Shown here piece after piece: positions 700 to 43,800 of a stretch of DNA of 64,000 nucleotides (position 1 is its first letter; the number at the start of each line of letters is the position of its first letter). Origin of the DNA: Chrysogorgia sp. JL179-B06 (Eukaryota > Cnidaria > Anthozoa > Scleralcyonacea > Chrysogorgiidae); assembly GCA_035772405.1 (NCBI GenBank), contig JAYKKM010000149.1, positions 5,082,501-5,146,500 on the forward strand, given 5' to 3'. Position numbers and translations under genes: made by a program. The notes beneath the pieces were generated by a model. The model saw nothing but the letters and a program-made list of their open reading frames with translations. It was not told where the DNA came from and did no database searches.

Positions 700-975
700 T
701 GATGCTAAAGTGTTGAGCAACGTTCTTGAGAGGGTTGTATATATACAACTGAATGAGTACTTTGCTCGATTGAACTATTTCCATCCTCGTCAATACGGAT
801 TTAGGCTTGGACACAGTACTACGCAAGCTATTCCAGTATTGGACATGTAAATAATTGGGATTGGGAATCTATGGATACGGGCAAAGTCACTGGTTTACTA
901 AACGTTCGATTCGATAAATCATAAACTCCTTCTGGGAAAGCTTGACAACATGGTACTGTCTGGTAAATTAAAACG
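700..975 (+). pseudogene. LINE reverse transcriptase fragment
   Basis: The plus-strand translation reads VLERVVYIQLNEYF then HPRQYGFRLGHSTTQA, the conserved stretch between RT blocks 2 and 3 of CR1/Jockey-like non-LTR retrotransposons. The frame stops at 850. Near 905-970, after a frame change, the expected motif-A continuation resumes (DSINHKLLLGKLDN). It is a short dead insertion lacking the rest of the RT and any endonuclease. Family membership rests on motifs; the exact clade is not resolved. Confidence 0.8.
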
Positions 976-1023
976 AACTAATTTTCCTGTAATCACCATC
1001 TTTGATGACAATTTGAATTTCAC

Positions 1024-1937: not shown

Positions 1938-1942
1938 TTTTT

Positions 1943-2450: not shown

Positions 2451-2649
2451 ATTAATTTCACCCAACATAATCTTGAAAAATATCAATACGCACCAACCAA
2501 TAACGATATTGATTAATATTGTGCAAATCTATATTTTCTGCTCAATCAATTTCCAATTGTTCATTATTATTATTATAACTCTTTCCTGTCGGGCTGAAAA
2601 ACATCCAAAATTGAACACCTGTTTGTTCTATTGATATCTCTGGAAATAA

Positions 2650-2915
2650 CCATAACTGTTGCAAAAGCTATATATTTTTTGAAAGCCCAATAAACCGGCT
2701 TTTAATAGTGCTTTTAAATGTCGCGAACAAGACACATTATGTTGATATAAATTAGCATTAACTATCATAAACAGGTTGAAAAACTTTTAGAAAAGGCCAT
2801 CTTGCACGAACGCGTAGAATCATGAAAATTCAAAATGCCACCAATCGCAGATCTTTTATGAAATCAAATCAAATTTGGCGTGTGAGTGAATCTTGAAGCT
2901 TTTTCAATAAAGTCA
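2650..2915. repeat. Interspersed repeat, inverted copy at 47715-47990
   Basis: The reverse complement contains the 47.7-kb sequence with scattered differences, for example ATAATGTGTCTTGTT, TGGTTTATTGGGCTT-like and TATAGCTTTTGCAACAGTTA. No protein recognised. It lies just upstream of the Polinton remnant and may belong to it. Confidence 0.6.
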
Positions 2916-4766: not shown

Positions 4767-4847
4767 TTACGAATCACATGGTGTAATATTTCTGAAAGTC
4801 AAATTTATTCGCGGACCTCTGCTGTGGTATTCTTTTGGCACACGATG
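4767..4847 (-). CDS. ALKBH3: ALKBH3 exon 8 (terminal coding exon)
   Basis: The acceptor is a T-rich tract ending TTTTTCAG. The exon starts in phase 0 with H223 (HRVPKEYHSRGPR), the third iron ligand, then INLTFR with R235 and R241, and ends NITPCDS-TAA. This is the family's final double-stranded beta-helix strand, and the stop falls shortly after, as expected. Confidence 0.93.
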   Translation of the reverse strand, partial: HRVPKEYHSRGPRINLTFRNITPCDS

Positions 4848-13800: not shown

Positions 13801-16800
13801 AGAAAGACTTTCCTTTAGTAAGAGTACAAATTTTGAAGTTGATGAGGCGAGTATTTTAAAATCAGAAGACGAGACAGGATGTTTGGTCTTGTTGACACAG
13901 ACTAGGGCGCTCAGTCTTTCCAGTCAAAGGCCGAAACCCCCATATGCTCTGAGATACGTGTTATATAATATATATATACTGATGATGTTATAATATATAT
14001 GATCATGTTGCGCTGCAAGCAACGAAACGTTAGCAATTAAATCTCTTTTACTACGTCTTGTCTCAAAGTCATTTGCTGGGCTCTAATATTTATCTTTAAA
14101 TTACGTTTTCCACCTGGTATATATATCTATTACCACAACACTGAAAAGTTACAGTTCTCCAGAAGCGCACTTTGACAGTTGCCACAATATTGGTTCTCGG
14201 TTCTCCGTAGCCATATTTAAACTAGAAATACGTTCCGCAATTTCTGATGAATTAGATTAACATTAACGGCCATTAACTAAAACATCAATCGCTATACAGC
14301 TATATATTCTTCAAATATTTGCATTTGCGTTATCTACCCCCGGATCACGAGAATAAAACAATTCAGGGGGTGATTCCGGGGGAGATTTTTAAATTTTTAT
14401 GTTGAAGGCGTCCGTTTCTACAGAGAAGGCGTCTATTTCACCAGAGAAGGGGTCCATTTCTACGGAGAAGCGTCTATTTCCCTGGAGAAGGCGTCTGCTT
14501 CTATGGAGAAGGTGTCTGTTCCCCCGGAGAAGGTATCTATTTCAGCGGAGAAGGGGTCTATTTCTACGGGTAAGACGTCTGTTTTTGTGGAGAAAGCGTC
14601 TGTTTCCGCGGAACATGTGCGTATTCCCACGGAGAAGCTCGATTTCTACGGAGAAGCTACGTGTTTGTACGGAGAAGAGGTGACCCTTGTGGGCCACCGT
14701 AGGTATCACCCTCTGTGGCTGTCAACAATGCGCAAGAGCTCGTGAACCAAACAAGAGCTCGAAAACCAAATCGCGGCCCGGTCAACAATGGGAAACCTTT
14801 TCTTTTAATTCCCGAGAAGTTAGTTGGTAATTTTCTTTCATCTTTTCGTCAATAAAATTGATAAGACAGATTGCCGATCTTGAGATTTTAATTCCTTCCT
14901 CGTCTAGAGTGTCTTATTTTTTGAATCTTTACTACAGCAGATCTCAAAGAAATGACTCTATTTCTTGCATATAGCGAAACCTTTGCCATCGTAAAATATC
15001 TCTTGTATACAGTAAATACGGCGGAGCGACGATATGAAACAAGATGACACTACGGATCGGAAAATGGCAAAAACTTCCGGATATGGGCGAACCGATCACG
15101 ACATCGATACCCTGAAAACCGGAACGCGTTCTGGTACGCGTTTTTAGTTAGGTTATTTCTGAGCAGTACTGTAGTGCTCTACAAGGGAAACTTTCTGTTG
15201 TAATTTGAATGTTTCGACACGGCTATTCAGTTCAATCTTATCTGCAATATGTCTTAACTATACTAATATGAACCAGCCTCTCAAGGCTTCATTGGACATT
15301 GACATCTCGAAGATATGAAGAAGATGATCTTCACTTTGCTATGTGCTCGTTCACAAGAGGCAACAGTGGGAGCGAGTGCGACATTCACCAAGTTAAACAA
15401 ATGATGATACAGGCTTCTCATTATATTTTTCCCGAAAACTTTTAGAAGGGTCGGTAGATAAAGCCAATGCTGCGTTTGTTCCGCCAAGGGTTTTTTCCAC
15501 TCAGCTTTCTCTGTCGTTTTGAGAAACTCTTCGTACTTCTTTTTGCAATTTCACTCGATTTGGAGAGCAAAATGAACCGATTTGCGACAACTTCAGCTTC
15601 GATTCCGTAGATTTTGGCCAGCTTTTTGGCATTACCTGAATTTTCTTCGTTGAGAATTTTGGGATGGAAGACGTTGGCCAGCGAAAAAATTGTCACAAGC
15701 TTTAGACGAGAATCTCTTCTCAAGTTCGTTGCACCCAGTCTAAAAACGGGAAGAAAAAGTCTCGTTTAAAGAGATGTCTTTGGCAGACAATTCCTGCAAA
15801 TTGTGCGCCGACGCTTTGGGTAATTCAAATCTTGGTTGTAACAACCAACCACTTTTCCGTGCCGTATTGTCGTGCCTCCTTTAGAAATTCATCCATCTTT
15901 CCTTCGTTCCTAAACGACGATAGCGTTGCTTTAAGAGATTGCACGCCCGATATCGCAGAAAACAAGTCAATGTTTTCATGCTGCAGATATTCTGAAATTG
16001 ATCTCTACGAGCGAAACCCTTCTTCAACACAATATACATGAAGCAAAGAACTTGAACTTTTGTATGCACATGAGCCATCAGCAGCTACTCCCCTCTTCTG
16101 ACATTTCTTCCAGCATGGATATGATAGCAGGCAAGGTGTTTACAACAACATCTAAATTATCTGATCGGACAGTCCATCTTTTGACTGAAAGGGAGTGCAA
16201 CACCTGGTTTCCTTTAATATGCTGGCCTCGCAGCTTCTCTTCATACAATACATGCCTCTTCGTAACGATATATGGAACCAGTATGGCATCAAATATATCA
16301 TAGACATGTAGTAAAAGGGTTTAGACATGCAGTACTTACATGCAGTCTGTAAGCAAAGTTTCATGGAAAAAGAGTTATTTGCACCAGCTACAGTGAGATG
16401 CTGTTGAACACCGCGGCCACGTCCTTGCCAGACATGTTACAGTAAGTCCATATTCGTGAGTATAGCAATGATAATGTCCGCAAGGCTTTTCAGTATTAAA
16501 CTGGTCACACGCGCTAGCTTGATGCACCATAGGAGAAAAATATGACAAATTCTATGGGTGACTTTCCATCCTACGTTCCAAGGACTTATATCTACATCTA
16601 TGTTAATACTCTGCAACGCCGGGTAGCACTACGCAGAGATAAAAAATATGTATATATATATATACATAAGTTTTATGAAATACTAAAAAATTTAACTATA
16701 AAGTACAAATTAAAATAAAATAATAATAATAATAAAATGTTAATGTTAAAAATTAAATTTTTAAATTTTTAAAAAAATCACTAATCTGTGATACCAATCA

Positions 16801-19800: not shown

Positions 19801-22800
19801 ATTACTTCGAAAAATACGTTGATTTACGGACATTTGTTGCTTTTATAAGATAAACATTAGGGACTTTAAGGTCTACGACGGCAACCTAGGACGGGGACGT
19901 CGTTCAAACAAAAGAATCTTCATGCGAAACAATAATGAATAATTTTTATTGCCAAGAGTAATTTCAACGCCGTTCTCGTTCTGTTTACAACGCCACTGGG
20001 AGCATTTTCACGTCTTTCGGACGACGGTAACTCGCGGAGAGATGTGACTTAAGACTGACTTAAACACAGACACTATAATCGTTTTAGAAATATTGAAGCG
20101 TTTTGGATATCATAAAACAAGCTTGGAGTGTCAAATTAGCAGAGTCGAAAACACTTTCCACGTCTTACGCTAGTCAATCGACCGTGGTTTCATTCAAATG
20201 CTAAAATGTGTATTGCTTTTACTGCCGTCGCCGCCCTGATCAACGCCAGAACAGTTCGAATTTACAATTTTAATACAGTCAGACTATGACTATTATTTTA
20301 AATACTAATCATGTTTATTTTATGACAGCAACAAATGTCCAGTAAATCAACGTATTTTTCGAATTAGTAATCCACCATCTTTCAAGGCTTTCAACTTGTC
20401 TGCAGTCCGTACTGTCTTTCCAATAAATTGTAATCTTTTTAAATTATCCATATACTGTTTATACTTTCAATTATAGAAGTTTGTGGTATGTTTTCACAGC
20501 GATCCGGCCCCCCGGATGATATAAGCGAGAATAAGCCAGGTGACCAGCCTTTACCAAGGGTCTTCTCTTCCCTCGCTCCACTCCCCTCCTATCCCGGGCG
20601 CTCCATCCCCAGGCACTGAGAAGACCCTGGGACGAGGTTGACGTTTCAACACTCTAATCTAGAGTGTCTTCATCAGGGGTGATCGTTGTAAGGTTAGGAT
20701 CCCTATTTATCTCAAATTCTTTATATTCTTGTGATATAGACATAATAGTAATGCATTAACAAAATATATAAATATAAACGAAGCCTACGTCCTAGAAGTC
20801 TTTTAGTTTTAGTCTAATTTGTAGAGATACCTGTAACTGAATTAACTTCGCGCGATTTATCGATCAGAATTAAGATCGTGATTTCATAAACTTTTCGTTC
20901 GATTTCGTCAGCAAAAACAGCTTATATATTTGAAATTTGTCTTCACACATTAAACATTTATATGTCTCAAAAGTAAGAAAAAACTTTCGCAGATACAAAC
21001 GCAGAAACGCTGAAATGGTCGCCTTCGGCTCGAGTTTGTATATCACAGAAAGATCGGCTGCTAATGTAGTCATAATTTATCGATTTATTCAATAAACGGT
21101 GACGTATCAAAAACCTACTGTAGTAACTTACCAAGTGTCCAGAAGCACCTACAATGAAAACAAAAAGGCGCATCTTTCGTCAATGAATACTCAAGCCATG
21201 AAAAGTCATTATACACCAGCCTGAAACTTGAAGTTCTCTCTTTCCATATGTTGATCCAGGGAACTCAATAACTGATCTTATGGGACCTAAACTATTGAGA
21301 CTAAAGCTCGATTAAATTCGTTGACGATCTCAGTGGAAGGGTCGCGTGCTTCCATGTTTTGCCATATTTAAATTGTCGGGCAGTATACTATCTGGAAATT
21401 ATTGGGGGTTGGGACCAGTGGTCGAAATAATTCTCAGGAATTCCTACTACAATATACCTATATTGTTTCTTATTAGAACGTCTTATTGTTTCCTACTACA
21501 ATACCTATATATTGTTTCCTACTTCAATACGTATTGCTCCCTAATACAATATCTAGTGCTTCCTCCTATTGTTTCCTACTACAATTTGTTTCCTACTACA
21601 ATATCTATTTTTCCTACTACAATGTCTATTTAATTTGATCCTACTACAATGTCTATTGTTACCTACTATAAGACCTATATTGTTTCCTACTACAATACAT
21701 TCTTTCCTACTATAATACCAAAACTTTCCTACTACAATACGTGTTGTTTCGTATTACAATATCTATATTGTTTCCTACTACAATATCTATTTTTCCTACT
21801 ACAATGTCTATTTAATTTGATCCTACTACAATGTATATTGTTTCCTACTATAATACATATATTGTTTTCTACTACAATACACATACATGTCCAATATAAC
21901 CATCGGTATGCATCTGCATCAGATGGTTACCGATCGCGACCGATTGTAAACTGATCCCTTCCCTTCCTATCCTAAGTGTACTAACCATCGGTATGCATCT
22001 GCATCAGATGGTTACCGATCGCAACCGATTGTAAACTGATCCCTTCCTAAGCGTACTAACCATCGGCATGCATCTGCATCAGATGCCTACCGATCGCGAC
22101 CGATTGTAAACTGATGCTCCTACACATCTGCCAACTTTCCTACCGATGGCACCGATGGCACCGATGGCACCGATGCTACCGATGGCTCCGATCGCTTCAA
22201 TAATAGTGGATACTTTATCTGTCCCTACGCTACAATTCATTCATACCACATACAAGTGTTTCTAAACCCAAATAATTCAGCCATATAGTTTGTGTGTTAT
22301 GTATTTCCTCGTTCTTAAAAAACTTCAAACACATATGTTACGTTACACCATCGCCACCGATAGCTTTAATGATCATGCATAATTTATCTGTTATGTTATT
22401 ATCTCGTTCTTAAAAAAACTTGTAACAAATATCTTACGTTCTTAAATAACCATGTAACAAATATCCTACGCTACAATTCATTCATAACACATATAAATGT
22501 TTCTTAACCCAAACAAACTCTTGACATGTATCACTACTATTTATTACCGCGATGACTTCAATTGTCACATCCATACTTTATCTGTTATGTATTACCTCGT
22601 TCTTAAAAAAACTTGCAACAAATATCTTACGTTCTTAAATAACCATGTATCAAATATCCTACGCTACAATTCATTCATAACACATATAAATGTTTCTTAA
22701 CCGCCCAAACAAACTCTTACGATGACTTCAATTGTCACATGCATACTTTGTCTGTTATGTATTACCTCGTTCTTAAAAATCTTGCAACAAATATCTTACG

Positions 22801-25800
22801 TTCTCAAATAACGTAACCTTGTAACAAATATCCTACGCTACAATTCATTCATAACACATATAAATGTTTCTTAACCCAATCAAACTCTTGACATGTATCA
22901 CTACTATTTATTACGATGACTTCAATTGTCACATGTATATACTTTGTCTGTTATGTATTACAATTCAGCTATATAGTTTGTGTGTTATGTATTACCTCGT
23001 TCTTAAAAAACTTCAAACACATATGTTACGTTACACCATCGCCACCGATAGCTTTAATGATCATGCATAATTTATCTGTTATGTATTATCTCGTTCTTAA
23101 AAAAACATGCGACAAATATCTTACGTTCTCAAATAACCTTGTGACAAATATCCTACGCTACAATTCATTCATAACACATATAAATGTTTCTTAACCCAAA
23201 CAAACTCTTGACATGTATCACTACTATTTATTACCGCGATGACTTCAATTGTCACATGCATACTTTGTCTGTTATGTATTACCTCGTTCTTAAAAATCTT
23301 GCAACAAATATCTTACGTTCTCAAATAACCTTGTAACAAATATCCTACGCTACAATTCATTCATAACACATATAAATGTTTCTTAACCCAAACAAACTCT
23401 TGACATGTATCACTACTATTTATTACGATGACTTCAATTGTCACATGTATACTTTGTCTGTTATGTATTACCTCGTTCTTAAAAACTTCAAACAAATATG
23501 TTTCGCTACACCATCGCTATCGATACTCCATAGCTTTAATGACCATACATAATTTGTCTCTTATGTATTATCTCGTTCTTAAAAAAACTTGCAAAAAATA
23601 TCTTACGTTCTCAAATAACCTTGTAACAAATCCTACGCAACAATTCATTCATACCACATATAAATGTTTCTTAACCCAAAACTATGCCCAAACAAACTCT
23701 TGACATCGTTGCGATCGCTCAATTTTAAAATCGACGATCGTAGCTATCATATGAAAACCACACGCTCAGCGATCCTGTCCATCACAGCGAACGCTCATTC
23801 GAAATATCTGCCGAACCCCAAAACGATAATGTGTCCAATCAAATACATCGCATTATGCACATGATAAGTTCCACCTATGAAACACTGGGACGAGATCTAA
23901 GTTCACTACTTTTAAAATGCAATCCAAACGACTTCTTTTTACGGGAGGTCCATTACTTTCCACAAAATGATAAATTCTATGTTTGAAACCGACGTCCAAT
24001 GTGTCGAACCTAATACACATTATATTCGACACATGATAAATTCGACGTTTCAAATAGACCTTAATGATAACATCAATTACAATGAAAAGCTGTGCTTGCG
24101 ATAGTAAAAGACAGTTGTCTTTGTTTACTTCGTCCATAGCCATAGCTTTGATTAGCTGTGACACGACAAAGCCCGCTATCAATACGGCTGACTATGTTTG
24201 TTTTGCCGCAATCGCAGCGATTATATGGAAACAGGTACGATCGTTAAAGTTTCTTAACACAAACTATTTATGCACATCACTACTATTTGTTATTAACATG
24301 TCTCTTCATTTTCTCCCAAAATTTCTCGCCTTTATTTACATCAATTTACGACCAAACTGGGGAGAAAATAAAAATATCACAACACATTCCTTTCTTTTCT
24401 CCCCACTTCATCACACCCCAATATCCTGTAATAGTAATTAGCTTATAAATATTCACCTTAATCTGTCACATCCTTCTATAATTAATCCGTCATTCTCTGA
24501 CCTTCTAACAAAAACCCTTCCAAAAATTATTAACGTCATACCATATTTAACTTACACAAAAACGTTCACAACAATCCAAAACACGTGTTGTTATAAATAT
24601 TGCTCGCCATCATCACATCATCTAATTCTTAAGTCAAAACAATTCTTTAATCAAAACAAACGTTTCCTCACTTCCGCTAAGTAACACAATCACACTAATA
24701 ACTATTTACATATAAATCTCTCCCCTTAAATACTAATACTCCACTAATAACTATTTTCATATAACTATTCTCATTATCTTGCTCGTCCACTCAACGAAAC
24801 TTACTTTCATTAAAAATATTTTTACTTTCTCCATGCATTTTCTTACAAGTCTACATCCTCCCAATAACTTTTATCACCACACTTCCTTTCCCGTCCGCCC
24901 TATCGCCCATATTTAACCAAAATAAAAATACGCTATATTCCAATCTATCAATACTAATCTATCTCTTAGTTTTCTTACTTCACAATTACAAATGTCTTTC
25001 AACATAATTGATCTAATGCTTACTAACTTAACACACTTATTTTCACTTATATCCTTGGCGCAGTTACAGCTGTTTCAAACGTCGAATTCGTCATGTGTCC
25101 AATCAAATACATCGCATTATCCACATGATAAGTTCGTAATTGCGGTCGAACGAAATATTAAGTTCCACCCCTTCGGACGGATATAACGACCAAAGTGCGA
25201 CGTTTTCAAACGTCCAGTTTATCATGTGTCAAATGTAATAAGGCTCGTCAAAATAAACTGGGACGATATTTAAGTTCAGTACTTTTAAAATGCAATCCGA
25301 ACGACTTATTTTTACGGGAGGCCCATTACGTTCGACAAAATCATAAATTCTATGTTTGAAACCGACGTCCAATTTGTCGAACCTAATACACATTACATTC
25401 GACACATGATAAATTCGACGTTTCAAATAAGCCTTACTAATAACATCAACTGCAATGAAAAGCTGTGCTTGCGATAGTAAAAGACACTTGTCTTTGTTTC
25501 CTTCGTCCATATAGCCAGCTATCAATACCGCTGACTATGTTTGTTTTGCCGCGATCGCTGCAGCTTATTACAGGATATTGGGGTGTGACGAAGTGGGGTG
25601 CCAGAAAGGAATGTGGTGTGATATTTTTATTTTCTCCCCAGTTTGGTCGTAAATGGATGTAAATAAATGCGAGAAATGTTGGTAGAAAATGAAGAGACAT
25701 ATTTATAATAAATAGTAGTGATGTGCAGAAATTGTTTGTGTTAAGAAACTTTAACGATCGCACCTGTTTCCATATAAGAGTGTCCAGCTAATGCTTTGCG

Positions 25801-28800
25801 CGCTTGTGTTATTGTTTTGATTTGTGAAACTGGCCTCTAACCTTCTAACTACCTCAATTTATTACGTTTTCTTGTTGTTTGGTTATCTTCTTACGACATA
25901 ATAAGCTGTTTACAAAAGTCGTTTAAATCAATTTGTATAGTGATGTCTGACTCAAGAGTTTGTCGAATATTGTGAACCGCACTCTTCGTGCCGTCGTCTG
26001 TCAGCGTGTTCTATAATATTCTCAACGGCTTCGATTACGATGGCCTTGTCCAATACAATGGCAATGATTTACATCAGTGAGCGTTCGTTTCTAGCGCAAT
26101 ATCTGTTCCTCTACTCATAGAATATATGGAATATAAGGATCTTGCCATGAAACTGTGCGTCTTGAAGGAAACTTTGAAATTCACGCATCAAACGGCAAAC
26201 AACGAGCGACTGATACCTGTCTCAAAACAGAATCAATCGCACTTTCTGCAACATCTTCCCCAAAAATGAAGTCACATACAAAACGGCGAAACACATCAAC
26301 TTTTAAAAACACTAAACCCAACAACTCATACTACAGGAAAAGCCACCTAGCACTCTCCGACGATAAAACGACGCAATGCCATCACTCCTTCCCAGTACTT
26401 TATTACCGAACCCTCCATCTGTACCAACTGCACCATCGGTGATACTCTCCATCTATTCCAAGTCCCCTACCATCTGTTACAATCTGTTACCGTCTGTTAC
26501 CGTCTGCTACGATCTGCTACGATTTGTTACTACCTGCTACCGTCTGTTACCGTCTGCGCCATCGGTACCATCGGTAGCATCCGTCCTACTCTCCATCTAT
26601 TCTAAGTCCCCTACCATCTGTTACAATCTGTTACCGTCTGTTACCGTCTGCTACCATCTGCTACGATTTGTTACTACCTGCTACCGTCTGTTACCGTCTG
26701 TTACCATCTGCACCATCGGTACCATCGGTAGCATCCGTCCTACCATCTATTCTAAGTCCCCTACCATCTGTTACAATCTGTTACCGTCTGTTACCATCTG
26801 CTACCATCTGCTACGATCTGTTACTACCTGCTACCGTCTGTTACCGTCTGTTACCATCTGCACCATCGGTACCATCGGTAGCATCCGTCCTACTCTCCAT
26901 CTATTCTAAGTTCCCTACCATCTGTTACAATCTGTTACCGTCTGTTACCGTCTGCTACGATCTGTTACGATCTGTTACTACCCGCTACCGTCTGTTACCG
27001 TCGGTTACCATCTGCACCATCGGTACCATCGGTAGCATCCGTCCTACTGTCCATCTATTCTAAGTCCCCTACCATCTGTTACAATCTGTTACCGTCTGTT
27101 ACCGTCTGCTACCATCTGCTACGATCTGTTACTACCTGCTACCGTCTGTTACCATCTGCACCATCGGTACCATCGGTAGCATCCGTCCTACTCTCCATCT
27201 ATTGTAAGTACCCTACCATCTGTTACAATCTGTTACCGTCTGCTATCATCTGCTACGATCTGTTGCTACCTGCTACCGTCTGTTACCGTCTGTTACCATC
27301 TGCACCATCGGTACCATCGGTACCATCGGTAGCATCCATCCTACTCTCCATTTATTCTAAGTCCCCTACCATCTGTTACAATCTGTTACCGTCTGTTACC
27401 GACTGCTACCATCTGCTACGATCTGTTACTACCCGCTACCGTCTGTTACCGTCTGTTACCATCTGCACCATCGGTAGCATCCGTCCTACTCTCCATCTAT
27501 TCTAAGTCCCCTACCATCTGTTACAATCTGTTACCGTCTGTTACCGTCTGCTACCATCTGCTACGATCTGTTACCACCTGCTACCGTCTGTTACCGTCTG
27601 TTACCATCTGCTACGATCTGTTACTACCCGCTACCGTCTGTTACCGTCTGTTACCATCTGCACCATCGGTAGCATCCATCCTACTCTCCATCTATTCTAA
27701 GTCCCCTACCATCTGTTACAATCTGTTACCGTCTGTTACCATCTGCTACCATCTGCTACGATCTGTTACTACCTGCTACCGTCTGTTACCGTCTGTTACC
27801 ATCTGCACCATCGGTACCATCGGTAGCATCCGTCCTACTCTCCATCTATTCTAAGTCCCCTACCATCTGTTACAATCTGTTACCGTCTGTTACCGTCTGC
27901 TACGATCTGTTACGATCTGTTACTACCCGCTACCGTCTGTTACCGTCGGTTACCATCTGCACCATCGGTACCATCGGTAGCATCCGTCCTACTCTCCATC
28001 TATTCTAAGTCCCCTACCATCTGTTACAATCTGTTACCGTCTGTTACCGTCTGCTACCATCTGCTACGATCTGTTACTACCTGCTACCGTCTGTTACCAT
28101 CTGCACCATCGGTACCATCGGTAGCATCCGTCCTACTCTCCATCTATTGTAAGTACCCTACCATCTGTTACAATCTGTTACCGTCTGCTATCATCTGCTA
28201 CGATCTGTTGCTACCTGCTACCGTCTGTTACCGTCTGTTACCATCTGCACCATCGGTACCATCGGTACCATCGGTAGCATCCATCCTACTCTCCATTTAT
28301 TCTAAGTCCCCTACCATCTGTTACAATCTGTTACCGTCTGTTACCGACTGCTACCATCTGCTACGATCTGTTACTACCCGCTACCGTCTGTTACCGTCTG
28401 TTACCATCTGCACCATCGGTAGCATCCGTCCTACTCTCCATCTATTCTAAGTCCCCTACCATCTGTTACAATCTGTTACCGTCTGTTACCGTCTGCTACC
28501 ATCTGCTACGATCTGTTACCACCTGCTACCGTCTGTTACCGTCTGTTACCATCTGCACCATCGGTAGCATCCATCCTACTCTCCATCTATTCTAAGTCCC
28601 CTACCATCTGTTACAATCTGTTACCGTCTGTTACCGACTGCTACCATCTGCTACGATCTGTTACTACCCGCTACCGTCTGTTACCGTCTGTTACCGTCTG
28701 TTACCATCTGCACCATCGGTAGCATCCGTCCTACTCTCCATCTATTCTAAGTCCCCTACCATCTGTTACAATCTGTTACCGTCTGTTACCGTCTGCTACC

Positions 28801-31800
28801 ATCTGCTACGATCTGTTACTACCCGCTACCGTATGTTACCGTCTGTTACCATCTGCACCATCCGTACCATCGGTACCATCGGTAGCATCCGTCCTACTCT
28901 CCATCTATTCTAAGTCCCCTACCATCTGTTACAATCTGTTACCGTCTGTTACCGTCTGCTACCATCTGCTACAATCTGTTACTACCTGCTACCGTCTGTT
29001 ACCGTCTGTTACCATCGGTAGCATCCGTCCTACTCTCCGTCTATTCTAAGTCCCCTACCATCTGTTACAATCTGTTACCGTCTGTTACCGTCTGCTACCA
29101 TCTGCTACGATTTGTTACTACCTGCTACCGTCTGTTACCGTCTGTTACCATCTGCACCATCGGTACCATCGGTAGCATCCGTCCTACTCTCCATCTATTC
29201 TAAGTCCCCTACCATCTGTTACAATCTGTTACCGTCTGTTACCATCTGCTACCATCTGCTACGATCTGTTACTACCCGCTACCGTATGTCACCGTCTGTT
29301 ACCATCTGCACCATCGGTACCATCGGTAGCATCCGTCCTACTCTACATCTATTCTAAGTCCCCTACCATCTGTTACAATCTGTTACCGTCTGTTACCGTC
29401 TGCTACCATCTGCTACGATCTGTTACTACCTGCTACCGTCTGTTACCATCTGCACCATCGGTACCATCGGTAGCATCGGTAGCATCCGGCCTACTCTCCA
29501 TCTATTGTAAGTCCCCTACCATCTGTTACAATCTGTTACCGTCTGTTACCGTCTGCTACCATCTGCTACGATCTGTTGCTACCTGCTACCGTCTGTTACC
29601 GTCTGTTACCATCTGCACCATCGGTACCATCGGTAGCATCCATCCTACTCTCCATCTATTCTAAGTCCCCTACCATCTGTTACAATCTGTTACCGTCTGT
29701 TACCGACTGCTACCATCTGCTACGATCTGTTACTACCTGCTACCGTCTGTTACCGTCTGTTACCGTCTGTTACCGTCTGTTACCGTCTGTTACCATCTGC
29801 ACCATCGGTAGCATCCGTCCTACTCTCCATCTATTCTAAGTCCCCTGCCATCTGTTACAATCTGTTACCGTCTGTTACCGTCTGCTACCATCTGCTACGA
29901 TCCGTTACTACCATACATGTCCAATATAACCATCGGGATGCATCTGCATCAGATGGTTACCGATCGCGACCGATTGTAAACTGATCCCTTCCCTTCCTAA
30001 GTCATGCATCTGCATCAGATGGTTACCGATCGCAACCGATTGTAAACTGATCCCTTCCTAAGCGTACTAAGCATCGGTATGCATCTGCATCAGATGCCTA
30101 CCGATCGCCACCGATTGTAAACTGATGCTCCTACACCTCTGCCAACTTTCCTACCGATGGCACCGATGGCTCCGATCGCTTCAATAATAATGGATACTTT
30201 ATCTGTTCCTACGCTACAATTCATTCATACCACATACAAGAGTTTCTAAACCCAAACAATTCAGCCATATAGTTTGTGTGTTATGTATTACCTCGTTCTT
30301 AAAAAACTTCAAACACATATGTTACGTTACACCATCGACACCGATAGCTTTAATGATCATGCATAATTTATCTGTTATGTATTATCTCGTTCTTATAAAA
30401 ACTTGCAACAACTGTATCTCACGTTCTCAAATAACCTTGTAACAAATATCCTACGCTACAATTCATTCATAACACATATAAATGTTTCTTAACCCAAACA
30501 AACTCTTCACATATATCACTACTATTATTACGATGACTTCAATTGTCACATCCATACTTTATCTGTTATGTACTATTACCTCGTTCTTAAAAAAACTTGC
30601 AACAACTGTATCTTACGTTCTTAAATAACCATGTAACAAATATCCTGCGCTACAATTCATTCATAACACATATAAGTGTTTCTTAACCTAAACAAACTCT
30701 TGACATGTCTCCTTCTTAAAAAACTTCAAACACATATGTTACGTTACACCATCGCCACCGATACCTTTAATGATCATGCATAATTTATCTGTTATGTATT
30801 ATCTCGTTCTTAAAAAAACTTGCAACAACTGTATCTTACGTTCTAAAATAACCATGTAACAAATATCCAACGCTACAATTTCATTCATAACACATATAAA
30901 TGTTTCTTAACCCAAACAAACTCTTCACATCTATCACTACTATGTATTACCTCGTTCTTAAAAAAAATTGCAACAAATATCTCACGTTCTCAAATAACCA
31001 TGTAACAAATATCCTACGCCACAATTCATTAATGATCATGCATAATTTGTCTCTTATGTATTACCTCGTTCTTAAAAATACTTATAAATCAAATATCTTA
31101 CGTTTTCAAATAACATTGTAACAAATATCCTACGCAACAATTCATTCATACCACATATCAATGTTTCTTAACCCAAACAAACTCTTCAAATGGCCTGCTT
31201 GCCATATCATCGCTGCGATCGCTCAATTTTAAAATCGACGATCGTACCTATCATATTAAAACCACACGCTCAGCGATCCTGCCCATCACACCGAACGCTC
31301 ATTCGAAATATCTGTTGAACCCCAAAACGATACTTGCCGCAGTTACGCCTGTTTCAAACGTCCAATTTTTCATGTGTCCAATCAAATACATCGCATTATG
31401 CACATGATAAATTCCACCTATGAAACAATTAATTTACACTTATTTGCAATATTAACCGCTTCCGTAGACGGTCCAATATAACGACCAAAGTGCGATGGTC
31501 TCAAACGTCCAATTTATCATGAGTCGGATGTAATACGGTTCGTCGAAACAAACTGGGACGACATTTAAGTTCACTACTTTTAAAATGCAATCCGAACGAC
31601 TTCTTTTTACGGGAGCTCCATTACTTTCCACAAAATGATAAGTTCTATGTTTCAAACCGACGTGCAATTTCTCCAACCTAATACGCATTATATTCGACAC
31701 ATGATAAATTCCACGTTTCAAATAGGCCTAATACTGATAAGATCGATTACAATGAAAAGCTGTGCTTGTGATAGTAAAGACACTTCTCTTTGTTTACAAA

Positions 31801-34800
31801 GCCCGCTATCAATACCGCTGACTATGTTTGTTTGCCGCGATCGCAGCGATTATATGGAAACAGGTGCGATCGTTAAAGTTTCTTAACACAAACAATTTCT
31901 GCACATCACTACTATTTGTTTTAACATGTCTCTTCATTTTCTCCCAAAATTTCTCGCCTTTATTTACATCAATTTACGACCAAACTGGGCACAAAATAAA
32001 AATATCACACCACATTCCTTTCTTTTCTCCCCACTTCGTCACACCCCAATATCCTGTCTGTCACATCCTTCTATAATTAATCCGTCATTCTCTGACCTTC
32101 TAACAAAAACCCTTCCAAAAATTATTAACGTCATACTTTATTTAACTTACACAAAACGTTCACAACAACCCAAAACACGTGTTGTTATAAATATTGCTCG
32201 CCATCATCTAATTGTTAAGTCAAAACAATTATTTAATAAAAACAAACCTTTCGTCACTTCTGCCAAGTAACATAATCACACTAGCTAATAACTATTTACA
32301 TATAAATCTCCCCTTAAATACTAATACTCCACTAATAACTATTTTGATATAACTACTCTCATTATCTTGCTAGTACACTCAACGAAACTTACTTTCATTA
32401 AAAATATTTTTACTTTCTCCATGCATTTACAAATGTCTTTCAACATAATTTATCTAATGATTACTAACTTAACACACTTATTTTCACTTATATCCTTGGC
32501 GCAGTTATGCTGTTTCAAACGTCCAATTTCTCATGTGTCCAATCAAATACATCTCATTATGCACATGATAAGTTCGTAATTGCGGTCGAACGAAATATTA
32601 AGTTCCACCCCTTCGGACGGATATGAGGACCAATGCAAAGTGCGACGGTTTCAAACGTACAATTTATCATGTGCCAAGTGTAATACGCCTCGTCAAAATA
32701 AACTGGGACGACATTTTAGTTCATCAAAATAAACTTGGACGACATTTAAGTTTACTACTTTTAAAATGCAATCCGAACGACTTCTTTTTACGGAAGGCCG
32801 ATTACGTCTATGAAACAATTAACTTCCACTTGTTTGCAATATTAACTTCCATGCACCGCTTCCGGCGACGGCAATATAACGACCAAAGTGCGATGGTCTC
32901 AAACGTCCAATTTATCATGTGTCCAATGTAATACGGTTCGTGGAAACAAACTGGGACGACATTTAAGTTTACTACTTTTAAAATGCAATCCCAACCACTT
33001 CTTTTTACGGCAGGTCCATCACTTTCCACAAAATGATAAATTCTATGTTTGAAACCGACGTCCAATTTGTCGAACCTAATACACATTATATTCCACACAT
33101 GATAAATTCGACGTTTCAAATAGCCCTTACTGATAACATCAACTACAATGAAAAGCTGTGCTTGCGATACTAAAACACACTTGGGCTTTCTTTCCTTCGA
33201 CTTGTGACACGACAAACCCCGCTATCAATACCGCTGACTATGTTTGTTTTGCCGCGATCGCAGCGATTGCATGGAAACAGGTGCGAGCGTTAAAGTTTCT
33301 TAACACAAACAATTTCTGCACATCACTACTATTTATTATTGATATGTCTCTTCATTTTCTCCCAAAATTTCTCGCCTTTATTTACATCCATTTACGACCA
33401 AACTGCACAGAAACTAAAAATATCACTTTTCTCCCCACTTCGTCACACCCCAATATCCTGTAATACTAATTAGCTTATAGATATTCACCTTAATCTGTCA
33501 CATCCTTCTATAATTAATCCGTCATTCTCTGACCTTCTAACAAAAACCCTTCCACAAATTATTAACGTCATACTTTATTTAACTTACACAAAACGTTCAC
33601 AACAACCCAAAACACGTGTTGTTATAAATATTGCTCGCCATCATCTAATTGTTAAGTCAAAACAATTCTTTAATAAAAACAAACCTTTCGTCACTTCTGC
33701 CAAGTAACATAATCACACTAGCTAATAACTATTTACATATAAATCTCCCCTTAAATACTAATACTCCACTAATAACTATTTTGATATAACTACTCTCATT
33801 ATCTTGCTAGTACACTCAACGAAACTTACTTTCATTAAAAATATTTTTACTTTCTCCATGCATTTACAAATGTCTTTCAACATAATTTATCTAATGATTA
33901 CTAACTTAACACACTTATTTTCACTTATATCCTTGGCGCAGTTATGCTGTTTCAAACGTCCAATTTCTCATGTGTCCAATCAAATACATCGCATTATGTA
34001 CATGATAAGTTCGTAATTGCGGTCGAACGAAACATTAAGTTCCACCCCTTCGGACGGATATGAGGACCAATGCAAAGTGCGACGGTTTCAAACGTACAAT
34101 TTATCATGTGCCAAGTGTAATACGCCTCGTCAAAATAAACTGGGACGATATTTTAGTTCATCAAAATAAACTTGGACGACATTTAAGTTTACTACTTTTA
34201 AAATGCAATCCGAACGACTTCTTTTTACGGAAGGCCGATTACGTCTATGAAACAATTAACTTCCACTTGTTTGCAATATTAACTTCCATGCACCGCTTCC
34301 GGCGACGGCAATATAACGACCAAAGTGCGATGGTCTCAAACGTCCAATTTATCATGTGTCCAATGTAATACGGTTCGTCGAAACAAACTGGGACGACATT
34401 TAAGTTTACTACTTTTAAAATGCAATCCCAACCACTTCTTTTTACGGCAGGTCCATCACTTTCCACAAAATGATAAATTCTATGTTTGAAACCCGACGTC
34501 CAATTTGTCGAACCTAATACACATTATATTCCACACATGAGAAATTCGACGTTTCAAATAACCCTTACTGATAAGATCAACTACAATGAAAAGCTGTGCT
34601 TGCGATACTAAAACACACTTGGGCTTTCTTTCCTTCGACTTGTGACACGACAAACCCCGCTATCAATACCGCTGACTATGTTTGTTTTGCCGCGATCGCA
34701 GCGATTGCATGGAAACAGGTGCGAGCGTTAAAGTTTCTTAACACAAACAATTTCTGCACATCACTACTATTTATTATTAATATGTCTCTTCATTTTCTCC

Positions 34801-37800
34801 CAAAATTTCTCGCCTTTATTTACACCATTTACGACCAAACTGCACAGAAACTAAAAATATCACTTTTCTCCCCACTTCGTCACACCCCAATATCCTGTAA
34901 TACTAATTCGCTTATAGATATTCACCTTAATCTGTCACATCCTTCTATAATTAATCCGTCATGCTCTGACCTTCTAACAAAAACCCTTCCACAAATTATT
35001 AACGTCATACTTTATTTAACTTACACAAAACGTTCTAATAACTATTTACATATAAATACTAATACTCCACCAATAACTATTTTCATAAAAACTACAATTA
35101 ACAAATGTCAAACCATTAAACTAAACAAATCTTTGTATCGCACTTTCTGCAACATCTTCCCCAAAAATGAACTCACATACAAAACGGCGAAACACATCAA
35201 CTTTTAAAAACACTAAACCCAACAACTCATACAAGAAAAGCCACCTAAACATATACCTAGCACTCTCCGACAACGACGCCATGTTTCTTGCAACGATAAA
35301 ACGAGCTTAATGCATCACTCCTTCCCAGTACTTTATTACCGAACCCTCCATCTGTCCATCGGTACCATCGGTACCATCGGTACCATCGGTAGCATCCGTC
35401 ATACTCTCCATCTATTCCAAGTCCCCTACCATCTGTTACAATCTGTTACCGTCTGTTACCGTCTGCTACCATCTGCTACGATCTGTTACTACCTGCTACC
35501 GTCTGTTACCGTCTGTTACCATCTGCACCATCGGTACCATCGGTACCATCGGTAGCATCCGTCCTACTCTCCATCTATTCCAAGTCCCCTACCATCTGTT
35601 ACAATCTGCTACCGTCTGTTACCGTCTGTTACCGTCTGCTTCCATCTGCTACCGTCTGTTACCGTCTGCTACCATCTGCTACCATCTGTTACTACCTGCT
35701 ACCGTCTGTTACCGACTGTTACCATCTGCACCATCGGTACCATCGGTAGCATCCGTCTTACTCTCCATCTATTCTAAGTCCCCTACCATCTGTTACAATC
35801 TGTTACCGTCTGTTACCATCTGCTTCCATCTGCTACCGTCTGTTACCGTCTGCTACCATCTGCTACGATCTGTTACTACCTGCTACCGTCTGTTACCGAC
35901 TGTTACCGTCTGTTACCGTCTGCTACCATCTGCTACCATCTGTTACCATCTGCACCATCGGTACCATCGGTAGCATCCGTCCTACTCTCCATCTATTCTA
36001 AGTCCCCTACCATCTGTTACAATCTGTTACCGTCTGTTACCGTCTGTTACCATCTGCTTCCATCTGCTACCATCTGTTACCGTCTGTTACCGTCTGCTAC
36101 CGTCTGTTACCATCTGTTACCGTCTGTTACCGTCTGCTACCGTCTGTTACCATCTGCTTCCATCTGCTACCATCTGTTACCGTCTGTTACCATCTGCTTC
36201 CATCTGCTACCATCTGTTACTACCTGCTACCGTCTGTCACCGACTGTTACCATCCGCACCATCGGTACCATCGGTGCCATCGGTAGCATCCGTCCTACTC
36301 TCCATCTATTCTAAGTCCCCTACCATCTGTTACAATCTGTAACCGTCTGTTACCATCTGCTTCCATCTGCTACCATCTGTTACCGTCTGTTACCGTCTGT
36401 TACCATCTGCTACCGTCTGTTACCGTCTGTTACCGTCTGCTACCATCTGCTACCGTCTGTTACCGTCTGTTACCATCTGCTTCCATCTGCTACCGTCTGT
36501 TACCGTCTGTTACCATCTGCTTCCATCTGCTACCGTCTGTTACCGTCTGTTACCATCTGCTACCGTCTGTTACCATCTGCTTCCATCTGCTACCATCTGT
36601 TACCGTCTGTTACCAAATGCTTCCATCTGCTACCATCTGTTACTACCTGCTACCGTCTGTCACCGACTGTTACCATCCGCACCATCGGTACCATCGGTGC
36701 CATCGGTAGCATCCGTCCTACTCTCCATCTATTCTAAGTCCCCTACCATCTGTTACAATCTGTAACCGTCTGTTACCATCTGCTTCCATCTGCTACCGTC
36801 TGTTACCGTCTGCTTCCATCTGCTACCGTCTGTTACCGTCTGCTACCATCTGCTACGATCTGTTACTACCTGCTACCGTCTGTTACCGACTGTTACCATC
36901 TGCACCATCGGTACCATCGGTACCATCGGTAGCATCCGTCCTACTCTCCATCTATTCTAAGTCCCCTACCATCTGTTACAATCTGTTACCGTCTGTGACC
37001 GTCTGTTACCATCTGCTTCCATCTGCTACCGTCTGTTACCGTCTGCTACCACCTGCTACGATCTGTTACTACCTGCTACCGTCTGTTACCGACTGTTACC
37101 ATCGGTACCATCGGTAGCAGCCGTCCTACTCTCCATCTATTCTAAGTCCCCTACCATCTGTTACAATCTGTTACCGTCTGTTACCGTCTGTTACCATCTG
37201 CTTCCATCTGCTACCGCCTGTTACCGTCTGCTACCATCTGCTACGATCTGTTACTACCTGCTACCGTCTGTTACCGACTGTTACCATCTGCACCATCGGT
37301 ACCATCGGTACCATCGGTAGCATCCGTCCTACTCTCCATCTATTCTAAGTCCCCTACCATCTGTTACAATCTGTTACCGTCTGTTACCATCTGCTTCCAT
37401 CTGCTACCGTCTGTTACCGTCTGTTACCATCTGCTTCCATCTGCTACAGTCTGTTACCGTCTGCTACCATCTGCTACGATCTGTTACCATCTGCTACCGT
37501 CTGTTACCATCTGTTACCGTCTGTTACTGTCTGCTACCATCTGCTACCATCTGTTACCATCTGCTTCCATCTGCTACCATCTGTTACCGTCTGTTACCAT
37601 CTGCTTCCATCTGCTACCATCTGTTACTACCTGCTACCGTCTGTTACCGACTGTTACCATCTGCACCATCGGTACCATCGGTACCATCGGTAGCATCCGT
37701 CCTACTCTCCATCTATTCTAAGTCCCCTACCATCTGTTACCGTCTGTTACCGTCTGTTACCGTCTGTTACCATCTGCTTCCATCTGCTACCGTCTGTTAC

Positions 37801-40800
37801 CGTCTGCTACCATCTGCTACGATCTGTTACTACCTGCTACCGTCTGTTACCGACTGTTACCATCTGCACCATCGGTACCATCGGTAGCAGCCGTCCTACT
37901 CTCCATCTATTCTAAGTCCCCTACCATCTGTTACAATCTGTTACCGTCTGTTACCGTCTGTTACCGTCTGTTACCATCTGCTTCCATCTGCTACCGCCTG
38001 TTACCGTCTGCTACCATCTGCTACCATCTGTTACTACCTGCTACCGTCTGTTACCGACTGTTACCATCTGCACCATCGGTACCATCCGTCCTACTCTCCA
38101 TCTATTCTAAGTCCCCTACCATCTGTTACCGTCTGTTACCGTCTGCTACCATCTGCTACCGTCTGTTACCATCTGCTACCGTCTGCTACCATCTGCTACC
38201 GTCTGTTACCGTCTGTTACCATCTGCTTCCATCTGCTACCATCTGTTACCGTCTGTTACCATCTGCTTCCATCTGCTACCATCTGTTACCGTCTGTTACT
38301 ATCTGCTTCCATCTGCTACCATCTGTTACTACCTGCTACCGTCTGTTACCGACTGTTACCATCTGCACCATCGGTACCATCGGTAGCATCCGTCCTACTC
38401 TCCATCTATTCTAAGTCCCCTACCATCTGTTACAATCTGTTACCGTCTGTTACCATCTGCTACAGTCTGTTACCGTCTGCTACCATCTGCTACGATCTGT
38501 TACCATCTGCTACCGTCTGTTACCATCTGTTACCGTCTGTTACTGTCTGCTACCATCTGCTACCGTCTGTTACCGTCTGTTACCATCTGCTACCATCTGT
38601 TACCGTCTGTTACCATCTGCTTCCATCTGCTACCATCTGTTACTACCTGCTACCGTCTGTTACCGACTGTTACCATCTGCACCATCGGTACCATCGGTAG
38701 CATCCGTCCTACTCTCCATCTATTCTAAGTCCCCTACCATCTGTTACCGTCTGTTACCGTCTGTTACCATCTGCTTCCATCTGCTACCGCCTGTTACCGT
38801 GTGCTACCATCTGCTACGATCTGTTACTACCTGCTACCGTCTGTTACCGACTGTTACCATCTGCACCATCGGTACCATCGGTAGCAGCCGTCCTACTCTC
38901 CATCTATTCTAAGTCCCCTACCATCTGTTACAATATGTTACCGTCTGTTACCGTCTGTTACCATCTGCTTCCATCTGCTACCGCCTGTTACCGTCTGCTA
39001 CCATCTGCTACGATCTGTTACTACCTGCTACCGTCTGTTACCGACTGTTACCATCTGCACCATCGGTACCATCGGTACCATCGGTAGCATCCGTCCTACT
39101 CTCCATCTATTCTAAGTCCCCTACCATCTGTTACAATCTGTTACCGTCTGTTACCATCTGCTTCCATCTGCTACCGTCTGTTACCGTCTGTTACCATCTG
39201 CTTCCATCTGCTACAGTCTGTTACCGTCTGCTACCATCTGCTACGATCTGTTACCATCTGCTACCGTCTGTTACCATCTGTTACCGTCTGTTACCGTCTG
39301 CTACCATCTGTTACCGTCTGTTACCATCTGCTTCCATCTGCTACCATCTGTTACCGTCTGTTACCATCTGCTTCCATCTGCTACCATCTGTTACTACCTG
39401 CTACCGTCTGTTACCATCTGCTATCCGATGGCTATACTGGACATACCTCGTTACTACCCGCTACCGTATGTTACCGTCTGTTACCATCTGCACCATCGGT
39501 ACCATCGGTAGCATCCGTCCTACTCTCCATCTATTCTAAGTCCCCTACCATCTGTTACAATCTGTTACCGTCTGTTACCGTCTGCTACCATCTGCTACGA
39601 TCTGTTACTACCTGCTACCGTCTGTTACAGTCTGTTACCATTTGCACCATCGGTAGCATCCGTCCTACTCTCCATCTATTCTAAGTCCCCTACCATCTGT
39701 TACAATCTGTTACCGTCTGTTACCGTCTGCTACCATCTGCTACGATTTGTTACTACCTGCTACCGTCTGTTACCGTCTGTTACCATCTGCACCATCGGTC
39801 TCTCCATCTATTCTAAGTCCCCTACCATCTGTTACAATCTGTTACCGTCTGTTACCATCTGCTACCATCTGCTACGATCTGTTACTACCCGCTACCGTAT
39901 GTTACCGTCTGTTACCATCTGCACCATCGGTAGCATCCGTCCTACTCTCCATCTATTCTAAGTCCCCTACCATCTGTTACAATTTGTTACCGTCTGTTAC
40001 CGTCTGCTACCATCTGCTACGATCTGTTACTACCTGCTACCGTCTGTTACCATCTGTTACCATCGGTACCATCGGTACCATCGGTACCATCGGTAGCATC
40101 CATCCTACTCTCCATCTATTCTAAGTCCCCTACCATCTGTTACAATCTGTTACCGTCTGTTACCGACTGCTACCATCTGCTACGATCTGTTACTACCTGC
40201 TACCGTCTGTTAGCGTCTGTTAACGTCTGTTACCGTCTGTTACCATCTGCACCATCGGTAGCATCCGTCCTACTCTCCATCTATTCTAAGTCCCCTACCA
40301 TCTGTTACAATCTGTTACCGTCTGTTACCGTCTGCTACCATCTGCTACGATCTGTTACTACCTGCTACCGTCTGTTACCGTCTGTTACCATCTGCACCAT
40401 CGGTAGCATCCGTCCTACTCTCCATCTATTCTAAGTCCCCTACCATCTGTTACAATCTGTTACCGTCTGTTACCGTCTGCTACCATCTGCTACGATCTGT
40501 TACTACCCGCTACCGTATGTTACCGTCTGTTACCATCTGCACCATCGGTACCATCGGTAGCATCCGTCCTACTCTCCATCTATTCTAAGTCCCCTACCAT
40601 CTGTTACAATCTGTTACCGTCTGTTACCGTCTGCTACCATATGCTACGATCTGTTACTACCTGCTACCGTCTGTTACCGTCTGTTATCATCTGCACCATC
40701 GGTAGCATCCGTCCTACTCTCCGTCTATTCTAAGTCCCCTACCATCTGTTACGATCTGTTACCGTCTGTTACCGTCTGCTACCATCTGCTACGATCTGTT

Positions 40801-43800
40801 ACTACCCGCTACCGTCTGTTACCGTCTGTTACCATCTGCACCATCGGTACCATCGGTAGCATCCGTCCTACTCTCCATCTATTCTAAGTCCCCTACCATC
40901 TGTTACAATCTGTTACCGTCTGTTACCGTCTGCTACCATCTGCTACGATTTGTTACTACCTGCTACCGTCTGTTACCGTCTGTTACCATCTGCACCATCG
41001 GTCTCTCCATCTATTCTAAGTCCCCTACCATCTGTTACAATCTGTTACCGTCTGTTACCATCTGCTACCATCTGCTACGATCTGTTACTACCCGCTACCG
41101 TATGTTACCGTCTGTTACCATCTGCACCATCGGTACCATCGGTAGCATCCGTCCTACTCTCCATCTATTCTAAGTCCCCTACCATCTGTTACAATTTGTT
41201 ACCGTCTGTTACCGTCTGCTACCATCTGCTACGATCTGTTACTACCTGCTACCGTCTGTTACCATCTGTTACCATCTGCACCATCGGTACCATCGGTACC
41301 ATCGGTACCATCGGTAGCATCCATCCTACTCTCCATCTATTCTAAGTCCCCTACCATCTGTTACAATCTGTTACCGTCTGTTACCGACTGCTACCATCTG
41401 CTACGATCTGTTACTACCTGCTACCGTCTGTTAGCGTCTGTTACCGTCTGTTACCGTCTGTTACCATCTGCACCATCGGTAGCATCCGTCCTACTCTCCA
41501 TCTATTCTAAGTCCCCTACCATCTGTTACAATCTGTTACCGTCTGTTACCGTCTGCTACCATCTGCTACGATCTGTTACTACCTGCTACCGTCTGTTACC
41601 GTCTGTTACCATCTGCACCATCGGTAGCATCCGTCCTACTCTCCATCTATTCTAAGTCCCCTACCATCTGTTACAATCTGTTACCGTCTGTTACCGTCTG
41701 CTACCATCTGCTACGATCTGTTACTACCCGCTACCGTATGTTACCGTCTGTTACCATCTGCACCATCGGTACCATCGGTAGCATCCGTCCTACTCTCCAT
41801 CTATTCTAAGTCCCCTACCATCTGTTACAATCTGTTACCGTCTGTTACCGTCTGCTACCATCTGCTACGATCTGTTACTACCTGCTACCGTCTGTTACCG
41901 TCTGTTATCATCTGCACCATCGGTAGCATCCGTCCTACTCTCCGTCTATTCTAAGTCCCCTACCATCTGTTACGATCTGTTACCGTCTGTTACCGTCTGC
42001 TACCATCTGCTACGATCTGTTACTACCCGCTACCGTCTGTTACCATCTGCACCATCGGTATACCATCGGTAGCATCCGTCCTACTCTCCATCTATTCTAA
42101 GTCCCCTACCATCTGTTACAATCTGTTACCGTCTGTTACCGTCTGCTACAATCTGCTACGATCTGTTACTACCTGCTACCGTCTGTTACCGTCTGCTACC
42201 ATCTGCTACGATCTGTTACTGCCCGCTACCGTCTGTTACCGTCTGTTACCATCTGCACCATCGGTACCATCGGTAGCATCCGTCCTACTCTCCATCTATT
42301 CTAAGTCCCCTATCATATGTTACAATCTGTTACCGTCTGTTACCGTCTGCTACAATCTGCTACGATCTGTTACTACCCGCTACCGTCTGTTACCGTCTGT
42401 TACCATCTGCACCATCGGTACCATCGGTAGCATCCGTCCTACTCTCCGTCTATTCTAAGTCCCCTACCATCTGTTACAATCTGTTACCGTCTGTTACCGT
42501 CTGCTACCATCTGCTTCCATCTGCTACCATCTGTTACTACCTGCTACCGTCCGTTACCATCTGCTATCCGATGGCTATACTGGACATACCTCACAATACA
42601 CTACAATACGTATATTGTTTCCTACTACAATATCTATTATTTCCTACTACAATGTCTATTGTTTCCTACTACAATACGAATATTGTTTCCTACGATGTCA
42701 TGGCCGCTATACTGGTGTACATAAACAACAGATTTTTTAAGTAGCTTCTTTCGCGCTTATGTACACCAAAACATGGCTGCCATGTCTATTGTCATTTGAA
42801 GCTCTGGGGATTGAGTGAAAACGTTCTATAATCTATATGTTCCGAGACTACCTTTTTAAACAATTTTTAAAAAGAACCTGTGTCAACCTGACATGAAAGT
42901 AAAAAAAAAGTCCCTTAAAGTGCCTATGAAACGAAAAATTCTACTATGTTTTTATGATCCATTTTGGTACTTCTTGATGCGTTGAATCTTATGGTGGTAT
43001 CGGTTTCTCAATCAGACAAAGCAAAATGCTTTATTTCTTATGTAAAAGGGGAAAAATTACACCAATTTTGTCCCACCTTATCGCGCGGCCACCTTAACGT
43101 CACACGTTAGATTTGGCATAGATTTTATAGATGAAAAAATCATTACTGATCTCGCTTTCAGAGGAAGAAGTTGACTCTAACTCAAACATCAGTAATATTT
43201 CCACAGCTAAGCATTTAACCACCACATAAAATATATCGAAATTATCGACGACTCTAACGTGTGACGTCACTATTGCTGCTGTTTCGGTTCCAGACTCTAT
43301 CAAAATAGCGATGTTTGAACGCCGATAAAAGCACTTTCCCGTACCGTGATTGAAAAACCGATAGCACCAAAGCATCACGAAGTACCAAAGTGGGTCATGA
43401 AAACAGAGTTGAATTTTTCGTCTCATAGATAGATTAGGGGTTGGGTAGCGGGCCGGGGATTGGGGCGAGGGCGGATGGAACGCCTGCTCGAAAGACCCAT
43501 GTTTTTAGATTTCGACGTCCCCAGAAGACGCTAAATTCTGATTGGCTGACTCAACTCATTAGTATTCAGGGTTTGCTGTCAGGAAATAAACATTTAAAAA
43601 ACCAGTGTTGGTAGATGAAAGCTTTAACCGATCTTCAGTTCGTTGCTGGTCGTAGCTTTAAATTAAAACAGGAACAAAAAGTAGCAACGAGGTAGCTGAT
43701 GGGAAAATGTGTTTTGATGGTATTACCAACGGGATTTGGCAGCCACGTTCGTGCGAGCGCGTGATTATCAATTGGCAGGGGAAGCAGCTATTATTGTGAT

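Follow-up and report, generated by a model that had tools for sequence, protein, structure and literature searches.

The closest described systems to the element reported here are Tetris, a foldback element of Drosophila virilis whose terminal-arm tandem repeats expand into satellite arrays (PMC4079207), Tm1, a Mutator/Foldback element of root-knot nematodes (PMC3169594), Muta1, a Mutator-like element (MULE) of Aedes aegypti (PMC5225508) that is placed with Phantom (PMC6446971), and the MULE-related Rehavkus (PMC6446971). MULE target duplications measure 8 to 11 bp and, although MULE terminal repeats are typically longer than 100 bp (PMC5225508), those of some MULE groups are short or absent (PMC6446971). 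These systems are described throughout as in the cited sections of those papers. Here we analyze a 64,000-nucleotide stretch from the octocoral Chrysogorgia sp. JL179-B06 (contig JAYKKM010000149.1, positions 5,082,501 to 5,146,500; hereafter the window), which contains two intact members of one DNA transposon family, one nested in the other. We consider it very probable that they belong to an apparently non-autonomous cut-and-paste family that generates 8-bp target duplications and carries satellites along with it. How satellite arrays arrive at new chromosomal sites is an old question; in this family, a transposon whose junctions are precise carries arrays of 1.1 to 6.6 kb, and it does so within a near-identical subfamily.

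Ends and nesting of the two copies

Both copies lie on the forward strand and consist of four modules in the order A-B-C-D. The outer copy (21882..42592; subfamily II, as judged from its sequence) measures 11,165 bp after removal of the inner copy and one duplicate. The inner copy (29912..39449; 9,538 bp; subfamily I) sits within the D array of the outer copy in identical orientation. Both copies are delimited by their ends and by 8-bp duplications, and the placement of the inner copy is also based on the neighbors of its D monomers. The left 18-mer occurs exactly twice in the window (from 21883 and 29913), as does the right 18-mer (last base at 39448 and 42591), in agreement with the initial annotation, which had found both ends here. 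The element itself reads CATACATGTCC...GGACATACCTC, with each end one base further out than in that annotation; the right end is written AGGTATGTCCAGTATAGCCATCGG, and the pair of ends CATACATGTCC / GAGGTATGTCC.

The terminal repeats are 25 bp long, and beyond them the two sides have only short inverted motifs in common. The left repeats are found at 21882..21906 (outer copy, CATACATGTCCAATATAACCATCGG) and 29912..29936 (inner copy), and the right repeats, on the reverse strand, at 39425..39449 (inner copy, GAGGTATGTCCAGTATAGCCATCGG when read inward) and 42568..42592 (outer copy). In the inner copy, the right end agrees with the left end at 18 of 20 bases of the inverted core, and the outermost 5 bases of the two ends are asymmetric (CATAC versus GAGGT). 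Between the two window copies, we saw no clearly stronger conservation of the ends than of A and B. The target duplications flank these repeats directly: ACAATACA at 21874..21881 and 42593..42600 for the outer copy, and GTTACTAC at 29904..29911 and 39450..39457 for the inner copy (all on the forward strand).

Both copies lie in tandem arrays, and for this reason the flank repeats in the window, taken alone, are weak evidence for insertion. The outer duplication is located in a 22-bp array, where random flank positions share exact 9-bp matches at about 1%, and the outer site, when repaired by eye, retains an extra ACTACAATAC. In the flanking arrays, ACAATACAC is found solely at its own two junctions. 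Arrays on a 22-bp unit, AAGTGAAGATGTAATTGTGCGC and its variants, are also present at 7511-9559 and 5024-5508 of the window.

The nesting of the inner copy in the outer D array is supported independently of the duplications. The outer D halves have 321 different 80-mers in common, versus 58 and 68 with the inner D array, and the nearest neighbor falls in the right class for 41 of 44 D monomers, so the two halves flanking the inner copy belong together. Among the three D stretches searched, CGTTACTACC occurs solely at the two inner junctions, and no tandem GTTACTACC pair is present. The nested arrangement proposed in the initial annotation therefore stands, and so does its restored D monomer, with the qualification that the inner site minus one duplicate matches the D consensus with three point differences (by eye). 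A copy of the near-identical, putatively recently active subfamily I has thus landed within a related element's satellite array. Another subfamily I left end, L010 (C35:5997322), likewise lies within a D array in the same orientation.

Copies elsewhere in the genome

A search of the host genome (781 Mb in 522 contigs) for the left 24-mer, allowing up to two mismatches, gave 188 matches, versus none for the reversed control pattern. The left ends analyzed were drawn from about 100 listed matches, nearly all of them exact; the remaining 88 or so, with one or two mismatches, lie outside our sample of 94. This sample counts once the places covered by both L012-L023 and L004-L009, drops the second of the L034 left ends, which is internal and follows a T, and does not include L052-L057. 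Pairing of ends was sampled at ten listed left ends, with 20 kb fetched for each. A right end lay within this distance in eight of the ten, and seven of these eight carried a duplication. Together with the two in the window, these eight make up the ten paired copies discussed below.

Apart from a different first base in L018, all ten paired copies have the same termini. At the right end, 25 bp are identical throughout (the search tolerated three substitutions), and the identity of the left 24 bp is partly a selection effect, because exact matches headed the listing. An exact 8-bp duplication flanks nine of the ten copies, and none of 90 mispaired flanks match. The initial annotation had read the duplication as 10 bp. 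However, C stands directly 5' of ATACATG in 92 of the 94 left ends, the base 3' of the right-hand duplication is something other than C in four of the nine duplicated copies, and the base 5' of the left-hand duplication is C in just one of the nine. Both terminal C's are therefore the element's own and the duplication is 8 bp long; the two extra bases of the 10-bp reading are the first and last C of the element, matched by chance in the flanks. Base preference within the putative duplication is weak: over 92 left flanks, C at position 2 reaches 38%, T at position 4 and A at position 5 reach 42% each, and TA at positions 4-5 is found in 12 (p 0.08).

Fixed termini at unrelated sites, a duplication of constant length, and inverted terminal repeats are the features of a terminal-inverted-repeat transposon, and the first two of these indicate cut-and-paste integration. 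Spread through larger segmental duplications or through exchange between satellite arrays, with the flank repeats as by-products of tandem arrays, has in its favor that both window copies lie in arrays where chance 9-bp matches occur at about 1%, and the left ends of type IV (described below) on contig C35 do lie in a 5.2-kb tandem duplication. We nevertheless regard this explanation as very improbable, as paired copies elsewhere have unrelated flanks, the duplications are exact in nine of ten copies with none among the mispairings, the flanks diverge up to one and the same base in the left ends printed, and an array touches the insertion in only 9 of the 94 left flanks. For the sampled copies, a purely segmental spread is contradicted by the duplications and the unrelated flanks.

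Helitrons are not known to make target duplications. The exact 8-bp duplications, along with the inverted termini, thus contradict a rolling-circle origin, in which the family would resemble the Helitron/Helentron-like elements of bivalves with their central tandem arrays, and we find this alternative scarcely credible. In its favor, such elements often hold internal satellite-like arrays (PMC12628747).

The same left flanks also bear on the choice of target. Two of the 94 lie inside D, one being that of the window, and 9 of the 94 touch any array; these counts do not establish a preference for tandem arrays or for the family's own arrays. On viral contigs, the right 18-mer was not found, and the left 18-mer had three matches in surroundings unlike the element. 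A search of Rfam returned nothing at the gathering score.

Satellite modules and subfamilies

The A-B-C-D order noted in the initial annotation holds in both window copies and in the eight fetched paired copies. The A, B, and C blocks of the window copies align in the same order, with the best blocks 82 to 96% identical. All modules are on the forward strand, and the boundaries of A, B, and C are approximate. Module A consists of repeats of about 75 bp in the outer copy (21907..22200) and about 66 bp in the inner copy (29937..30185), closed by (ACCGATGGN)n tracts at 22142-22168 and 30153-30170, respectively. Module B is composed of repeats of about 174 to 192 bp in the outer copy (22201..23700) and about 194 bp in the inner copy (30186..31200). 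Module C contains a 213-bp inverted repeat (24221-24433 / 25566-25777) in the outer copy (23701..26400), and in the inner copy (31201..35330) a 1,437-bp direct duplication from 32424 and 33861, which adds 1.44 kb to the repeat content of that copy. The outer D array, with monomers mostly near 145 to 154 bp built of 10-bp and 9-bp subunits, is split into 26401..29911 and 39450..42567; the inner D array (35331..39424) contains (TACCATCGG)n tracts, the inverse of the tract that closes A.

The initial annotation described almost all of the element as tandem repeat. The repeats are there, but this was an overstatement, as Tandem Repeats Finder rows, once merged (period up to 500, three short C rows omitted), make up 48% of the inner copy; for the entire stretch the figure is 59%. 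Its size range of 9.5 to 11 kb was also too narrow. The fetched paired copies measure 6.5 to 13.5 kb, leaving out L014, which reaches 17.0 kb with a 7.6-kb foreign insert; L030, at 7.2 kb, includes a foreign insert of 1.27 kb. The L014-L015 insert lies in B (element positions 636-8280); by eye, its frames appear to encode a reverse transcriptase together with a tyrosine recombinase, a combination found in DIRS-type elements. The L030-L031 insert (element positions 450-1717) starts CAGTGGCGG and has 8-bp flanking repeats, GTTACACC; judged by eye, it is a different element that also makes 8-bp duplications.

The two arms are inverted relatives only via short motifs, with (ACCGATGGN)n closing A and (TACCATCGG)n recurring in D. 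Inner A aligned to the inverted D end scores 37, above the maximum of 23 in 200 shuffles, and aligned to forward D scores 21, below the shuffled maximum of 26. A and inverted D share 9-bp units, and CCATCGG/ACCGATGG motifs recur inverted in both arms, whose best inverted matches span 20 to 28 bp; the arms are unlike in length and monomer. Foldback elements, by comparison, have tandem units arranged as long inverted repeats at both ends.

The D array measures 1.1 to 6.6 kb across the ten copies. Two copies from separate contigs and with different duplications, L020 and L022, agree over 4,101 of 4,182 bp of D, in exact blocks that are collinear, although the D array of L020 is 2.1 kb longer than that of L022. 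Here the array has travelled with the element. This near-identity of D at unrelated sites, together with the further paired copies with duplications, bears out the proposal of the initial annotation that a defined mobile unit takes the satellites along with it.

Subfamily I comprises the inner copy and L012, L014, L016, L018, L020, and L022, which differ by 0 to 1.0% over about 860 bp of C. Subfamily II comprises the outer copy, L024, L030, and the left part of L028; in B and C, its pieces are 82 to 94% identical to the inner copy. Classified by the letters that follow the end, the 94 left ends include 39 of type I, 41 of type II, 3 of type III, and 11 variants, among them L050 and L051, which are type IV.

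In type III (L026, L032, L033, L054), an unrelated interior follows the family left end, which carries a single mismatch in L032 and in L033. L026 and L054 have about 260 bp in common and then differ, and no right end was found in 20 kb from L026. In type IV (L052-L053, L055), the family left end has one mismatch. The type IV cluster has its own satellite after the left end, with units near 70 bp (by eye), lies in the 5.2-kb tandem duplication, and includes frames that look by eye like a viral packaging ATPase. Both types were considered as autonomous partners and set aside: no transposase was recognized by eye in their frames, which stand unscanned against profile libraries. As types III and IV join one end to different interiors, they suggest that cargo of several kinds has been moved by a single set of ends.

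Two further observations concern C and the neighborhood. Window positions 11871-12218 are 77 to 89% identical, on the opposite strand, to pieces of C; because this relative has surroundings that are MITE-like by eye, C may contain old copies of a different transposon. At 12923-14708, another foldback-like element starts TGATATCCTACGGTGGCC; its inverted arms, each about 240 bp long, are built from 21-bp tandem repeats, and no clear target duplication was seen for it.

Mobilization and comparison with known elements

We propose that a transposase made elsewhere would recognize the ends of about 25 bp, and perhaps also the CCATCGG/ACCGATGG motifs, and would move everything between them, including kilobases of satellite. 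The D array would then lengthen or shorten through unequal exchange or slippage. In this reading, a subfamily II copy inserted into the 22-bp array, and its D array later received a subfamily I copy.

A number of observations weigh against this reading. Genome-wide pairing is known from a sample rather than a full count. The initial annotation had expected further paired ends with duplications; eight of the ten left ends sampled conformed in pairing and seven in duplication, but L026 (of another type) and L028 have no right end within 20 kb, and the paired L018 has no duplication and another first base. The six other pairs compared share less D than L020 and L022, most of them far less: L014 and L016 share 2,511 of 3,782 bp, and the inner copy and L016 share 1,230 of 4,120 bp, the lowest of the pairs compared. 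Judging from this spread, arrays can travel whole and are quickly remodelled. No transposase was found among the three element frames (of ten window frames scanned in Pfam), and no autonomous relative was found. Finally, among the approximately 100 listed left ends, none lies within 141 kb of any of 119 matches to the MULE transposase (PF10551) on shared contigs (24 contigs computed, C416 by eye).

At fetched loci, frames of at least 170 amino acids proved by eye to be D-array frames or inserted or neighboring sequence, with no transposase. As none was seen, mobilization would occur in trans. With 150 of 350 candidates scored, PF10551 matches number at least 119 in the genome; at the MULE loci L056 and L057, the only two whose flanks were read, the element's ends are absent. 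The initial annotation had rightly left the superfamily open, given that the frames scanned contain no transposase. We consider a Mutator/Foldback-like element slightly more likely than not. The 8-bp duplication, which falls within the MULE range, the asymmetric ends, and the inverted subterminal motifs resemble those of animal Mutator/Foldback elements, whereas the terminal repeats, at 25 bp, are shorter than the more than 100 bp typical of MULEs. It is a substantial possibility, though short of an even chance, that the same non-autonomous element is mobilized by the transposase of hAT, P, or another superfamily that makes 8-bp duplications. The ends CATAC and GAGGT are unlike the usual hAT or P termini. 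On the other hand, the duplication is exactly 8 bp in nine of nine duplicated copies, 8-bp repeats also flank the different 1.27-kb insert of L030 (by eye), and a Foldback-like structure is also known in the P superfamily, in Galileo (PMC3169594).

With its precise junctions and a near-identical subfamily, this family makes dispersal and array growth separable copy by copy. A further idea, which we consider unlikely, is that the satellite is a working part of the element, with D and A multiplying putative transposase-binding motifs (CCATCGG) in opposite orientation. If so, a longer array would recruit more of the borrowed transposase, and array growth would be selected at the level of the element. 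The family would then be a self-reinforcing distributor of satellites, seeding new kilobase arrays genome-wide, even inside its own arrays.

The family is an extreme form of a known kind of element, a form that we did not find described; among titles and the openings of abstracts in the open-licence literature, no element was noted that consists mainly of several satellites with unlike arms. Like our family, Muta1 makes duplications of 8 or 9 bp, has subterminal tandem repeats next to a short terminal motif, and has internally variable non-autonomous derivatives; unlike it, Muta1 has 145-bp terminal repeats and a known transposase, and no long satellites are described for it in the cited sections (PMC5225508). 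Rehavkus, reported from arthropods and annelids, has a one-sided minisatellite before its 3' terminal repeat, as D is here, but it makes 9-bp duplications and has a PHD-finger transposase (PMC6446971). Tm1 likewise has asymmetric outermost bases outside an inverted core, a tandem motif in its terminal repeats, and many members without a transposase. It differs in its 9-bp duplications, in the units of its two terminal repeats, which measure about 14 bp, and in its size, with two measured elements of 1.1 and 2.6 kb that lack kilobase arrays (PMC3169594). Tetris, as here, has no transposase, makes 8- to 10-bp duplications, and has tandem repeats in its terminal arms; the difference in array length between two allelic copies of Tetris is like the array variation seen here. 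This likeness is one of description. Tetris has long matched inverted repeats with 220-bp units (PMC4079207), whereas in the present family the two arms have different repeats with only short inverted motifs in common, and the repeat modules make up about half of the element or more.

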